Shown here in pieces: positions 20,791 to 56,992 of a stretch of DNA of 64,000 nucleotides; position 1 is the stretch's first letter, and every line of letters starts with the position of its first letter. Origin of the DNA: Longibacter salinarum (GTDB lineage: Bacteria > Bacteroidota > Rhodothermia > Rhodothermales > Salinibacteraceae); contig NZ_PDEQ01000002.1 in the NCBI RefSeq assembly GCF_002554795.1, positions 62,001 to 126,000 on the forward strand. Direction: 5' to 3'. A program made the translations under genes and the position numbers. The notes beneath the pieces were generated by a model. The model was given only the letters and a program-made list of their open reading frames with translations, was not told the DNA's origin and searched no databases.

Positions 20791-21015
20791 CTGGCTACCG
20801 GACACTTTCACTGGAGCCTGCGTCACGTCCACATTCCCCGGCGCAGGTGTTCTTCGAATGCGTGGGAGTATGAGAGTATGGGAGCATGGCCGTGTGAGAG
20901 TTTGTCATTGCTCGACGCTCACGCCTTTTTTCGACATCCATAAGACCTAACGAGGTCCCTCTCTCGATGTCGCACAGAGATGATCCGGATTGAAATCAAA
21001 TCGTCCGGTAGCCAG
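20791..21015 (+). mobile_element. MITE-like element, copy A (225 bp)
   Basis: The ends are CTGGCTACCGGAC (left) and GTCCGGTAGCCAG (right), a perfect 13-bp terminal inverted repeat. The interior shares blocks with the other copies: GGGAGTATG-type short repeats, a TTTGTCATT motif, a region near GACCTAACGAGGTCC, and TGAAATCAAA before the right end. There is no coding capacity. Heptamers of type GAACCCT lie on both sides. Possible 9-bp flanks CCATGAACC and CCCGAAACC match at six positions only. Confidence 0.75.
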
Positions 21016-21207: not shown

Positions 21208-21291
21208 CGAACCCTGAACCCTGAACCCTGAACCCTGAACCTTGAACCCTGAACCTTGAACCCTGAACCCTGAACCGTGAACCCTGAACCC
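21208..21291 (-). repeat. Heptamer array (GGGTTCA)n directly after the nupC stop codon
   Basis: About twelve imperfect copies of GAACCCT on the plus strand read as GGGTTCA on the transcribed strand. The array starts at the base next to the stop codon of the minus-strand nucleoside transporter gene. Variants include AAGGTTC and ACGGTTC. Four consecutive perfect units occur at the distal end (GGG with TTCA loops), a potential G-quadruplex. Confidence 0.9.
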
Positions 21292-22581
21292 TCAAGCCAC
21301 AAGCACGCCGGCGATGGTGGCCGTCATCCACGAGGCGAGTGCTCCACCGAGGACGGCGCGCAGTCCGAGGGCCGCGATTTCGCTGCGGCGTGACGGCGCG
21401 ATGCCGCCGATGCCGCCGATCTGAATTGCGATCGAGCTGAAGTTGGCGAAGCCGCAGAGCGCGTAGGTGCCGATGATGACCGAGCGACGGCTCATCACAT
21501 CCTTCAGGTCCTGAAGCGATGCGTACGCCACGAACTCATTGACGGCGACCTTTTCGCCAAGGAGCGTACCGAAGCTGAGGATGTCCGCCGCTTCGACGCC
21601 CATCGCCCAGGCGAGTGGGGCGAAGATGAATCCAAAGACGGCCTCGAGGGTCAGCCCTTCGAACCGCCCACCGGATGCGTTGGCGATCATTTCGTTCAAA
21701 CCGGTGATATTTCCGAATCCGCCGAGGACCCAGTTGATGACGGCGATCAGTGCAATGAACGCGAGGAGCATCGCGCCGACATTCAGCGCCAGCTTCAGGC
21801 CTTCCCCGGCGCCCGTTGCCGCCGCTTCGATGACGTTGTCATCTTCTTTCTCGACGTTCATGTCGGTCGCGCCGCGCGTTTCAGGCTCCTCCGTTTCCGG
21901 AACCAAAATCTTTGCCGTCACGATCGCAGCGGGCGCACTCATAATCGAGGCGGACAGAAGATGCTTCGCAAACAGAACCTGCTCGGCCTCGGTCTCGCCT
22001 CCGAGAAAGCTAATGTATGCCGCCAGTACACCTCCTGCGATTGTAGCCATTCCGCCGGACATTAGCGTCATGAGCTCACTGCGCGTCATTTTCTCGACGT
22101 ACGGTTCGACCACGAGGGGGGCCTCCGTCTGTCCGATGAACACGTTCGCGGCGGCCGACAGCGACTCGGCGCCGGAAATGCCGAGGGTTTTCTGCATCAA
22201 CCAGCCCATGCCCTTCACCAGCGGCTGCACGATCCCCAAGAAGTAAAGCACGCTCATCAGGGATGCGAAGAAAATAATCGTCGGCAATACCTGGAAGGCA
22301 AAATTATTGCCCATCTGGGGATTGCCGAGTTCGCCGAAGATGAACTTCGTGCCCTCGTACGTGAAGCTAAGCAGATCACGGAAGCCGGTCGCGATGGCAT
22401 CAAAGAGCAACTCACCGGGACCGGTCTTCAAGACAAGGAGAGCGAAGACCACCTGTAATCCAACCCCGGAGAGGACCAGCTTCCAGTCAATGGCTTTTCG
22501 GTTACTCGAGAAGGCAGCGGCGATTCCAATGAAAACGGCTAGCCCGATCAGGCCACGCAGCAGGGCGATGGGGAAAGACAT
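21292..22581 (-). CDS. nupC: Concentrative nucleoside transporter (NupC/CNT family)
   Basis: Imports nucleosides with Na+ or H+ across the inner membrane. The 429 residues span the CNT N-terminal, gate and C-terminal domains. Typical motifs are GNPQMGNNFAFQVLPTIIFFA, FIGQTEAPLVVEPY, MTLMSGGMATIAGGVLA, FATNEF-like VAVNEFVAYASL and LCGFANFSSIAIQIGG. The length is usual for the family. The stop codon abuts a (GGGTTCA)n array and a MITE-like element lies in the same downstream region. Another copy lies 188 nt upstream of the start. Confidence 0.93.
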   Translation of the reverse strand: MSFPIALLRGLIGLAVFIGIAAAFSSNRKAIDWKLVLSGVGLQVVFALLVLKTGPGELLFDAIATGFRDLLSFTYEGTKFIFGELGNPQMGNNFAFQVLPTIIFFASLMSVLYFLGIVQPLVKGMGWLMQKTLGISGAESLSAAANVFIGQTEAPLVVEPYVEKMTRSELMTLMSGGMATIAGGVLAAYISFLGGETEAEQVLFAKHLLSASIMSAPAAIVTAKILVPETEEPETRGATDMNVEKEDDNVIEAAATGAGEGLKLALNVGAMLLAFIALIAVINWVLGGFGNITGLNEMIANASGGRFEGLTLEAVFGFIFAPLAWAMGVEAADILSFGTLLGEKVAVNEFVAYASLQDLKDVMSRRSVIIGTYALCGFANFSSIAIQIGGIGGIAPSRRSEIAALGLRAVLGGALASWMTATIAGVLVA

Positions 22582-22768
22582 GCGGTGGGAGCGAGGTGAA
22601 GGGGGCGGAACGAGGGCAGGCGTAGCTCAGCGACACATCTACGTGTTCTAAAAATACAATCAGGCACGAGGAGGGCAAGCACAACTCGATGCTGATTCGA
22701 TGAGAGATGAAGGAAAAATCGTAATCACGCTAAGATGTCGTGAAGAGGAGGCCGTTACACCGCCAGAG

Positions 22769-22973
22769 TTACCTACCAGACACGTTCATAAGAGCGTGTG
22801 TCATTTCAGCATTTCCCGGTACGGCTGCGCCGACATGCACGGGAGTATGGGGAATGGGCGCAGGAGAGTGCATCATGTTCGACGATAGCGCTTCGTTTAC
22901 GAGACGCACGAGGTCTGCTTCCCGATGACATGCGAAGACATCCAGGTTTGAAATCAACCGGTCCGGTAGCTAG
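22769..22973 (+). mobile_element. MITE-like element, copy B (205 bp), with 9-bp target duplication
   Basis: The element is bounded by a perfect 9-bp direct repeat CCGCCAGAG (22760-22768 and 22974-22982). The left end TTACCTACCAGAC is the inverted counterpart of the right end GTCCGGTAGCTAG. The interior contains ACACGTTCATAAGAGCG, GTGTGTCATTTCAGCATT and the shared GTTCGACGATAGCGC block, closely matching copy E. No protein is encoded. The remainder of the 22582-23167 gap holds only the nupC promoter side and the M1 peptidase terminator. Confidence 0.85.
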
Positions 22974-23072
22974 CCGCCAGAGCGCAGCATATCGATTTTC
23001 TGCTCTAGGGTTGTAGACGTCCAGACATCCCGCTGTAAATGCGGTCCAGCGATTACTTCAACCGACGTAGAC

Positions 23073-40462: not shown

Positions 40463-41711
40463 TTACCGGCGTGGGGGGCTCGAGGTATCGAGTGCAATGT
40501 CACCGATACGTACCTTCAAAACTCGCGCCAGAAAAGCGGAAACATCAGATTGCTCCGCGATAATCTTCGACGTCGGCTTGCAGCTACCGTGACCGGCCTT
40601 GGTTCCACGCGCAACAGAACCGGTTCATCGCCACGCTGTGCCCCTGTACACGAGCAGCGAACGTGTACGAATGCGCCGGTACGACTCGATCATCGGTGTT
40701 GGCCGTGATGATGAGCGTCGCCGGGTAGGCGGGTCCGTCCTCGACATTGTGAAGGGGAGAGTATGCGCGGAGATCGTCGAACTGCTCTGGGTCATCTGAC
40801 GAACCGTATTCGGGTACCCCTGCCCAGCCAGTGGTAAATTTGTGATACCGAAGCATGCCCAGAACGCGGTCAGAGACGATCGCAGCGCCGAAGAGGTTTA
40901 GGTTCTGGACCAGTGAGGCGCCGGTGAGCAGGCCGCCGTTCGACCCTCCGGCAATGACCAATTTCTCGCTGGAAGTGTAGTCTTCGTCAATCAAATACTG
41001 CCCGGCGGCAGGAATTTCATCGAAGCCGTTCGGCTTGTTCTCGAGCATGCTGGCTTCGTGTCAGGTCTGGCCGCACGCACCACTGCCGCGCAGATTCGTT
41101 ACGGCGTAGCCGCCTCCCATTTCTAGCCAAAGGAGCCTTCCGACGTAGAAGCTCCGGGTGAGACGTATGTTGAACTTGCCGTACGCATACATGAGCGTCG
41201 GGTTGGATCCATCCAGCTCTAGTCCCTTTCCGTGAACGATAAACATCGGGACTCGCGTGCCGTCCTTGCTGGTGTAGAATGCCGCTTTACGGCATAACGG
41301 TCGGCATCGAATCCAGAGATTTCTGGCTTGAGGAAGACCTGCTCGCTTTGCACGCTGAGATCGGCATGGTAGATCGACGTGGGGTGCGTATACGAGTCGA
41401 AACCGTAGTAGACATGATCCGACATCGGAGAGGCGGTCATGCGGGTGATGCTACCGATGGCGGGAAGCTCGACCTCTCGTTCCTGCAAGCCATCCAGGGC
41501 ATGGACGGTCACTTTCGCTTTGACGTCATCGACTGCAGGCACGACGAATTGGTCACCCGCTCCACGTTCTGCAGGACGGCGTTCGTCTCCGGAACGGGCG
41601 TCGCGATTCCTGATTCCGGTTCACGGGTGTCGAGCGAAACGAGACGCTTGTTGGGTGCACCATCGTTCGTCAGAAGCACGAACGTCGGCCCGTTCTTCCC
41701 AACGAACCCAT
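40463..41711 (-). pseudogene. Prolyl oligopeptidase (S9A) pseudogene, 5' part missing
   Basis: Fragments in several frames together read as the C-terminal 60 percent of a prolyl oligopeptidase. They include GAPNKRLVSLDTREPESG and the [19 protein letters not shown] loop, then HEASMLENKPNGFDE, nucleophile GGSNGGLL, DDRVVPAHS and the catalytic His in TKAGHG. Damage is visible: a TGG to TGA stop at 41061-41063 just before HEASMLENK; frameshifts near 41550, 41285 and 40635; and loss of one A in GTGGAACCAAG near 40610 that separates LLRVE from KAGHG. The N-terminal 40 percent is absent. A truncated MITE-like copy lies at the break (about 41712). Confidence 0.9.
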
Positions 41712-41806
41712 AGCTCGCTTCCGAGACGCATAAGACGCACGAGGTCCGTTCCTCGATGACATACAAAGACATTCCGGTTTGAAATCAACCGGTCCGGTAG
41801 CTAGCA
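41712..41806 (+). mobile_element. MITE-like element, copy C, left half missing
   Basis: The segment CTCGCTTCCGAGACGCATAA through TGAAATCAACCGGTCCGGTAGCTAG matches the right half of copies B and E. It ends with the family terminal repeat. The left terminal repeat and the short-repeat block are absent. It abuts the broken prolyl oligopeptidase gene on its left and heptamer repeats on its right. Confidence 0.75.
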
Positions 41807-41847
41807 GCGAACCGTGAACCGTGAACTGTGAACCGTGAACCCTGACC
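41807..41847 (-). repeat. Heptamer repeats directly after the DUF445 stop codon
   Basis: Five to six GAACCGT/GAACCCT variants (GGGTTCA type on the transcribed strand) fill the space between element copy C and the stop codon of the DUF445 gene. They begin at the base next to that stop. Confidence 0.85.
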
Positions 41848-43103: not shown

Positions 43104-43332
43104 CTAGCTACCGGACGGTTTCACGGGTGCCTGCGTCGCGTCCACATCCCCCGGCGCAGATCCTCCCGAATGCGTAGGCATGTGGGCGTGTGGGGGCGTG
43201 TGGGGGCGTGTGAGGGTTTGTCATTTTTCGACGATAACGCCTTGTTTTCGAGACGGATGAGACCCTACGAGGCCCGTTTCTCAAAGTCGCCCCAAGACGT
43301 ACCGTATTAAAATCAAACGGTCCGGTAGCTAG
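43104..43332 (+). mobile_element. MITE-like element, copy D (229 bp)
   Basis: The ends are CTAGCTACCGGACGGTTTCA and the inverted TCAAACGGTCCGGTAGCTAG, a 20-bp terminal repeat with two mismatches, the longest of the family. The interior has GTGTGGGGGC tandem units, TTTGTCATTTTTCGACGATA and GAGACGGATGAGACC. The 9-bp flanks CCGTGAACC and CCTTGAACC match at eight of nine positions. Non-coding. Confidence 0.82.
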
Positions 43333-43388
43333 CCTTGAACCCTGAACTCTGAACCCTGAACTCTGAACCCTGAACCTTGAACCCTGAA
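43333..43388 (-). repeat. Heptamer array (GGGTTCA)n directly after the mlaD stop codon
   Basis: Eight units alternating GAACCCT and GAACTCT, with one GAACCTT, lie between copy D and the mlaD stop codon. The array touches the stop. Confidence 0.88.
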
Positions 43389-44339
43389 CTAAAACACTTT
43401 AACCAGTGTCATGTCGTCTAGGTACCGGTTCGGATTCTCCTGCAGATCGCGCAGGAGTTCGTTCGCCTGCACTGCGGCAGAGTCCAGTCGGTTGTATAGG
43501 CTCGGGTCGTTGATCAGGCGGCCGGCCGTGCCGTCGCCGTTATTGATCTTGTCGGTGATCTCACCCAGATTCGTCGTCGAACGCTCGAGGTTGGCGAGGT
43601 TGCGATCGAGCTTGTTGAGCGACCGGTTCAGGCGCGCCATGATTTCGCCGAGGTTGTTTTCGGACAGCGAGTCCTCGGCGGCCTGAGTCTCACCCGAGAG
43701 GCGGCGCAGATCAGCCGTTACAGCTTCCAGGTTCTCGATCGTGTTGCCGAGGGCTTCGTCGTCCGTGGCGCGCTCCAGGTTGCGGCCCGTTTGCTCGAGT
43801 GCGCTGATGAGCTGGTTCAGGTTGCTCGTCGGATTGCTGACCTTTTCGCTGAGCGCCTGCATGGCTATGCTCGCGTCGGTCAGGGTCGAGTCGGCACGCG
43901 AAACGAGGCGAGGACCGGCGTCCGATAGCTGTTCGAGGATGCCACCCTGCGGCGGGCCAGGTAGCGTGGAGCCGGGCTCGACAGGCGGGTTGCTGGCGGG
44001 GCCCGGAGTAATCGCCAGTTTCACTCCGCTGAGGGCGCTGAATCCTGATGCTTCTGCAAACGAGCCCTGCGGGACCTTCACGTCTTCCTCCACGCGGAAA
44101 ATCACGCGGACGACCTGGTCGCTGAGGTCCAGCTTTACGCTCTCGACCGTGCCGATATTCACGCCCTTCATCTGGACGGGGTTACCGGCAACGAGGCCAC
44201 CGGCATCCTGAAACTCCGTCTGCAGCGCATAGCTGCTTTTGAAGATCGGGACGTTCTGTAAAAATCGGAGTCCGACAAAGAACACGATCGCTGCGACGAC
44301 GATCGAGAGGCCGACCTTAATTTCTTTACTGTAAGTCAT
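43389..44339 (-). CDS. mlaD: MlaD-family lipid-transport protein (MCE domain)
   Basis: The substrate-binding subunit of the Mla phospholipid transporter, anchored in the inner membrane and facing the periplasm. 316 residues: one N-terminal helix (VGLSIVVAAIVFFVGLRFL), a single MCE domain (about 38-115: FQDAGGLVAGNPVQMKGVNIG, VKVPQGSFAEASGFSALSGV) and a long helical C-terminal region. The operon order is mlaE-mlaF-mlaD in the direction of transcription, a normal arrangement. No mlaB or mlaC is present here. Confidence 0.9.
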   Translation of the reverse strand: MTYSKEIKVGLSIVVAAIVFFVGLRFLQNVPIFKSSYALQTEFQDAGGLVAGNPVQMKGVNIGTVESVKLDLSDQVVRVIFRVEEDVKVPQGSFAEASGFSALSGVKLAITPGPASNPPVEPGSTLPGPPQGGILEQLSDAGPRLVSRADSTLTDASIAMQALSEKVSNPTSNLNQLISALEQTGRNLERATDDEALGNTIENLEAVTADLRRLSGETQAAEDSLSENNLGEIMARLNRSLNKLDRNLANLERSTTNLGEITDKINNGDGTAGRLINDPSLYNRLDSAAVQANELLRDLQENPNRYLDDMTLVKVF

Positions 44340-48547: not shown

Positions 48548-48647
48548 ACCGCGCGTGACGATCCTTAACCTTCGCCCGCTCCAAGCTGCTTTGCCAGCAG
48601 ACGGGGCGGGTGTTTTGAGTTCATGGTTCAAGGTTCAGGGTTCAAGG

Positions 48648-48850
48648 CTAGCTACCGCACAGTTTGACTTCATTCGTATGTCTACGAAAAACGGATCTCG
48701 TGCGTCTCATGCGTCCTGGAAACGAGACGTTATCGTCGAACATGACGCACTCACACACTCCCATACCCACATACTCCCATCCATCTCCGAGCAGCCGCGC
48801 CTAGGAATACTGAAATGACACACGCTCGAATGAACGTGTCCGGTAGGTAG
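48648..48850 (-). mobile_element. MITE-like element, copy E (203 bp), inverted
   Basis: The ends are CTAGCTACCGCAC (left) and GTGTCCGGTAGGTAG (right). In reverse complement it matches copy B over its whole length, including ACACGTTCATTCGAGCG, GTGTGTCATTTCAGTATT and GTTCGACGATAACG. The 9-bp flanks GGTTCAAGG and GGTTCAGGG match at eight of nine positions, and further GGTTCA units extend on both sides (48623-48647 and 48851-48865). Confidence 0.85.
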
Positions 48851-48865
48851 GGTTCAGGGTTCAAG

Positions 48866-48918
48866 GATACATTCACACCTTAACACCTCAATATCTTGAC
48901 ACTTCAACACCTCCAAAC
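48866..48918 (-). repeat. Octamer-like repeats directly after the LLM oxidoreductase stop codon
   Basis: On the transcribed strand the sequence after the stop contains AGGTGTTG, AAGTGTCA, AGATATTG, AGGTGTTA and AGGTGTGA, five imperfect 8-nt units. The unit differs from the heptamers at other genes, but the position is the same. Confidence 0.6.
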
Positions 48919-56767: not shown

Positions 56768-56870
56768 ATTGGCAATGTAGGTGGGAACGAGGACGGTTTT
56801 TGGCGAGCCTGGCAAGAATCCTTTTCTAAGAGGCTTGAATGAAGAGGGATGAGGCGGTATGTTGGCCGAT

Positions 56871-56954
56871 GCGAAGCTAGGGGTGCCCGCCTGCGCGGGC
56901 TGAGAGAGTCTCTTCGAACCTGATCCGGTTTGCACCGGCGAAGGAAAGCTTCTC
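56871..56954 (+). promoter_or_regulatory. TPP (THI-box) riboswitch aptamer
   Basis: Contains GGGGTGCCCGC, the conserved CTGAGAGAG and CGAACCTGATCCGGTTTGC blocks, and GCGAAGGAAAGC. The P1 stem is GAAGCT (56873-56878) with AGCTTC (56947-56952), and the P3 arm CCCGC/GCGGG is present. It therefore binds thiamine pyrophosphate. The gene it precedes on the plus strand is an SDR oxidoreductase (57037). Confidence 0.92.
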
Positions 56955-56992
56955 GCGACCCGATGGTGCCGATCATCCGGTCCTTGGGAACC

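Follow-up and report, generated by a model that had tools for sequence, protein, structure and literature searches.

A MITE family and an IS4-family insertion sequence that shares its ends, often found at intergenic heptamer arrays of Longibacter salinarum

Do the short sequences that recur five times within 28 kb of this DNA move, and if so, what moves them and where do they land? The window (the whole stretch analysed, 64 kb) is C2:62001-126000 of a genome of 4.41 Mb in 22 contigs. A first-pass annotation had read the five as MITE-like elements, and all five were found at the places it gave, both by reading the sequence and by BLASTN. The truncated copy that it put at 41712-41806 is present as such but ends at 41804, not 41806, and the four complete copies span the 203-229 bp that it had reported. 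All window copies are intergenic. The features are as follows.

20791..21015, + strand: MITE copy A, 225 bp; degenerate duplication CCATGAACC/CCCGAAACC, 6/9 bp
21209..21292, + strand: heptamer array (GAACCCT)12, ~190 bp from copy A
22760..22768 (left) and 22974..22982 (right): perfect 9-bp target duplication of copy B, CCGCCAGAG
22769..22973, + strand: MITE copy B, 205 bp; reference copy
41713..41804, + strand: MITE copy C, right part only; left part lost in a deletion
41809..41845, + strand: heptamer array (GAACCGT)5, directly 3' of copy C
43104..43332, + strand: MITE copy D, 229 bp; duplication CCGTGAACC/CCTTGAACC, 8/9 bp, within a heptamer array
43336..43390, + strand: heptamer array (TGAACYY)n, which holds copy D
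48619..48647, - strand: heptamer array (GTTCARG)n, left of copy E; resumes right of copy E at 48851-48866
48648..48850, - strand: MITE copy E, 203 bp, inverted; duplication GGTTCAAGG/GGTTCAGGG, 8/9 bp, within a heptamer array
56869..56963, + strand: TPP riboswitch (RF00059, 64 bits), a separate observation

Copies, target duplications and empty sites

The search for further copies, which the first-pass annotation had set as a test, returned ~50 genome-wide, 38 of them delimited with both ends. BLASTN against the genome gave 47 matches with copy B as query and 55 with copy D, and most matches of the MITE copies have E values far below 1e-5 and are thus beyond chance. The density claimed for this region stands as a local cluster (five copies per 28 kb; Poisson P ~2e-5, for one chosen 28-kb stretch against the genome mean), but the family is not confined to the region. 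The 38 complete copies are non-coding, 144-577 bp long (all under the 600-bp limit applied to a MITE) and mostly 203-229 bp, with terminal inverted repeats (TIRs) of the form YTASSTACCGGAC(A)GTTT at each end; the shortest, of 144-145 bp, have lost internal sequence, and nested repeats are present in most of those of 267-577 bp. Mean pairwise identity among copies is 78%. Five copies (C1:266589, C2:8519, C2:592926, C11:106132 and C12:58913) are 98-100% identical, the mark of a recent burst and hence of recent movement. The 26 other genomes of the host family yielded no MITE matches.

Other repeats accompany these elements. A G-rich tandem repeat of period 8-10 (GAGTATG/GGGCGTGTGG) lies in MITE interiors, e.g., at window 43184-43216, and its length differs by copy. 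A second repeat family, with 32 genome-wide matches and ends resembling TGAATCCAAATGATCGT...TCATTTGGATTTGG, is nested in some long MITE copies; its sites include C13:38860-39035 (L153), C7:130784 (L154), C3:34003 (L155), C4:194240 (L156) and others. Two long copies, C1:783494-784070 (L064) and C4:179470-179904 (L045), enclose a third repeat, whose ends are AACCTGTTTGGCGGA...TCCGCCAAACAG(G/C)TTCT.

For the scoring of target duplications, the element boundary was fixed at YTAG...CTAG. Among the 38 complete MITEs, the flanking 9-mers are identical in 15, agree at 8/9 or more positions in 21 and at 7/9 or more in 28, and no perfect duplication of 4-8 or 10-13 bp was found. Copy B is bounded, as had been claimed, by the same 9-mer on both sides; other perfect examples are CCCTGCCCA, CCGGAATCA, GGCCGATGC and CTTTAATAC, as well as CATTCTGCC, GTCCGCAGG and CGTGCTATC. 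Outside the heptamer arrays, perfect 9-bp duplications flank 8 of 20 MITEs, compared with 0 of 380 mismatched flank pairs.

Empty orthologous sites, a second test set by the first-pass annotation, were found in the sole same-genus genome compared (G001, 83% complete and one of the 26 genomes above). Window 31-50.8 kb has its syntenic counterpart on contig C337 of that genome, with 69-82% identity; the gaps were inspected by eye, a MAFFT alignment of the empty sites having been uninformative. Between the aligned blocks that enclose copy D lie 278 bp in the window and 82 bp in the relative, which has a degenerate heptamer array there and no element; for copy E the figures are 398 bp and 168 bp, again without the element. 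Both sites are too diverged in the relative for the pre-insertion sequence to be rebuilt base by base. A further contig of the relative, C41, spans the gene between copies A and B without an element, and synteny stops there. At copy C, the relative has ~2.2 kb more than the window; this extra DNA includes a 349-aa gene and the N-terminal region of a prolyl oligopeptidase (Pfam Peptidase_S9_N). The alignment breaks at 41718, within the truncated element, and both facts place copy C at the edge of a deletion. In the window, 40500-41718 holds an S9 prolyl oligopeptidase remnant in short, broken ORFs that is cut at copy C; in the relative the N-terminal part of its counterpart is intact and is accompanied by the 349-aa gene, which the window lacks.

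These data bear on whether the repeats move at all. Conserved regulatory or structural intergenic repeats of the REP/BIME or ERIC type, or parts of arrays spread by recombination or slippage, would also lie between genes, as the window copies do, and would adjoin heptamer arrays, as many copies do. Such an origin is disfavoured, and we consider it very improbable: exact 9-bp duplications occur at unrelated, non-array sequences at the rate given above, the syntenic sites of the relative are without the element, arrays are found without elements, and the elements have no stable fold beyond that of shuffled sequences (z ~-1.6). A reading as structured RNA was likewise rejected on that fold score, obtained on both strands, and on an Rfam search in which no family matched at the elements. 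The evidence thus supports the repeats as copies of a non-autonomous DNA transposon, i.e., a MITE.

A resident insertion sequence with the same ends

No transposase-bearing copy of the MITE family was found in the 64-kb window, in agreement with the first-pass annotation, and an IS4-type transposase gene in the window was rejected, since matches to PF01609 lie only on C1, C10 and C12. The C1 match is not near any of the listed TIRs and was attributed to a different IS. It had also been proposed to look for an IS with matching ends and 9-bp duplications, and a candidate came from a TIR pattern search, in which CTAGCTACCGGAC was found 172-697 bases from ten contig ends and oriented toward the end. 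Two sequences occur at these contig ends, each at five of them and each starting with the 18-bp TIR CTAGCTACCGGACAGTTT; they represent the left and right termini of a multicopy IS left unspanned by the assembly, so that the resident IS is known from its two ends, split across contig ends. Contig breaks of an assembly can, in this way, expose a MITE's autonomous partner.

Among the five left ends there are 0-1 differences in 183 bp, which marks the resident IS as recent too; the right ends differ at 1-4 positions in 249 bp, except for a more diverged copy on C4 (8-11 from the others). An ORF, MSNSRRLQDSIERAI..., starts in the left end. The right end codes for the C-terminal part of a transposase (225 aa) that matches PF01609 (DDE_Tnp_1) at 36.5 bits (cut-off 23) and the NCBIfam IS4_2 model NF033591 at 85.6 bits (E=3e-24), the latter below the whole-protein cut-off because the sequence is partial. 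The Y(2)R(3)E motif is legible in it.

Full-length relatives were found by an order-level search, in other genomes of the same host family:

L101 (G018): 1216 bp; transposase 62% identical to that of the resident IS
L102 (G015): 1254 bp; 46% identity; one in-frame stop
L104 (G014): 1203 bp; broken frame

All have TIRs of the resident type, ends in CT or TT, and perfect 9-bp duplications (CCGTCCGAC, TCAAGACCA and GTTTGCGAG). The L101 transposase passes NF033591 (159.1 bits vs a cut-off of 152) and has D61D108E and Y(2)R(3)E, with Q where YREK has K, six residues after E. Salinibacter ruber plasmid pSR66 carries a fragment with 51% identity and related ends, which points to Salinibacteraceae as the probable host family. 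In GSL.Bin22, a Great Salt Lake Bacteroidetes MAG, a short element has the same TIR pair, another interior and the 9-bp duplication CGCGGACGC; several MITEs have thus apparently been built on this TIR. That element and two from Anaerolineae MAGs, picked up in a contig pattern scan, were rejected as copies of the present MITE, with related ends and other interiors. The Anaerolineae elements (L097 and L098, Chloroflexota) are short; their CTAGCTACCGGAC TIRs are long, and their duplications appear to be of 8 bp.

The MITE consensus is identical to the right end of the resident IS over 18/18 bp, and matches its left end at 92% over 25 bp and the left end of L104 at 89% over 36 bp. No homology was found deeper inside than 18-36 bp. 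The MITE therefore did not arise from the resident IS by simple deletion, and it may really descend from some other IS that shares these ends and has possibly been lost. In a rival reading, the mobiliser was a different IS4-like element of the same terminal specificity, since lost; the resident IS would then be a mere cousin and the MITE now immobile. The short reach of end homology to any IS seen would fit it, as would the age of most MITE copies implied by their mean identity. The nearly identical five-copy subfamily speaks of recent movement, however, as do the left ends of the resident IS, and the MITE and the resident IS have their target phase and duplication length in common. We regard a lost mobiliser as possible but rather unlikely, and the MITEs as very probably moved by the resident, full-size IS4-family IS with the same ends.

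Heptamer arrays at the insertion sites

The use of heptamer arrays in a fixed phase is absent from the first-pass annotation. Exact three-unit (GAACYYT)n matches number 138 in this genome, and a reversed control gave 0; among 27 genomes of the host family, three-unit arrays were found, besides this genome, only in the same-genus relative (38 matches). The four window arrays, written GAACNNT, vary mostly at two positions. Two or more heptamer units stand beside 10/10 IS junctions and 18/38 MITEs; by comparison, the fraction of window positions no more than 40 bp from a heptamer pair is 0.75%, although the window is rich in such pairs. Within arrays, the duplicated 9-mer is GGTTCANNG or its complement, always in one phase. 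All 35 MITE flank 9-mers that contain GTTCA/TGAAC have it in one phase, NGTTCANNN or NNNTGAACN, and the IS junctions, read by eye, follow the same phase: GTTCA/TGAAC is exactly placed in 9/10, and 10/10 are at most one substitution from a GGTTCARGG-type core. When the palindromic class SSYTSARSS, derived from the heptamer, was compared with 13 non-heptamer duplications from this and related genomes, the score was 5.8 vs 4.4 for random 9-mers, and 0 of 5000 draws did as well.

Are the arrays targets or products? Arrays adjoin elements at many loci, as they would if they had grown from target duplications as a by-product of the element. Among the first 100 matches listed, there are 36 arrays, ~25 of them without an element within 400 bp, which argues that the arrays are independent of the element. 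The relative has its 38 exact three-unit matches and no element, and its syntenic D site is a degenerate array with nothing inserted. Arrays that exist without the element, also in an element-free genome, look like targets rather than products, and a by-product origin seems improbable to us.

Taking the arrays as targets and the resident IS as partner, we consider the following course of events highly probable. The resident IS4-family DDE transposase would bind the shared ends in trans, excise the MITE by cut-and-paste and insert it at a 9-bp staggered cut, with a preference for symmetric, SSYTSARSS-like 9-mers. Each heptamer unit would offer such a 9-mer (GGTTCARGG), and intergenic arrays would thus serve as safe landing pads. 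We infer the mobilisation in trans, the origin of the preference in the transposase and the benefit of landing between genes. With more reserve, we favour the view that the IS and its MITEs have evolved a preference matched to the arrays, which would give an expanding family renewable safe sites, used in one fixed phase. The system is a clean case of a transposon with a short tandem repeat as its landing pad, with a countable target, an exact phase and a relative that has the arrays without the element. For annotation, it explains ~50 unlabelled repeats of this genome.

Relation to known systems

IS10 has a symmetric target, NGCTNAGCN, which shares a T-N-A core with the heptamer-derived 9-mer, and some ISs target REP/BIME sequences. 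Like ISs of repeated intergenic targets, the present elements prefer repeated intergenic DNA or a conserved site; here, that DNA consists of short heptamers in tandem, of whose seven possible phases one is used. Strong target conservation has been described for members of the IS4 subgroup and for ISRm22 (PMC2266710).

The IS4 family is defined by D(60-110)D(100-150)E and Y(2)R(3)E, with K six residues past E (YREK), a residue that is bracketed at one place in the family-defining paper (PMC2266710). Its IS10 subgroup has 5'-CT ends, 9-bp duplications and lengths of 1200-1350 bp (De Palmenaer et al. 2008, PMC2266710). The present elements resemble that subgroup in their 5'-CT ends, their 9-bp duplication, their probable preference for a symmetric target and the ~1.2-kb autonomous IS found in relatives, and L101 does so also in its DDE spacing and Y(2)R(3)E; membership of the IS10 subgroup, judged by ends, duplication length and size of the relatives, is a possibility. 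They differ in the 18-bp TIR of the partner IS, in the Q for the K of YREK, and in a target preference realised in heptamer arrays.

Bacterial MITEs such as those of Porphyromonas gingivalis (PMC4596501) and Coxiella burnetii (PMC5896051) are reportedly likewise short, non-coding and multicopy, with TIRs, target duplications and a transposase in trans, but their sequence, host and partner are other than those found here. The P. gingivalis MITE reportedly carries a minisatellite inside the element, whereas here the tandem repeat is the target. The first-pass annotation had called the present element undescribed, and this stands within the literature searched, ISfinder lying outside that search, and within Rfam: the TIR string occurs in no paper and no heptamer-targeting IS is described. 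MITEs and IS4-family elements were already known, as was target preference in IS4 relatives (PMC2266710); what is new is this pair of MITE and IS and their fixed-phase use of intergenic heptamer arrays.
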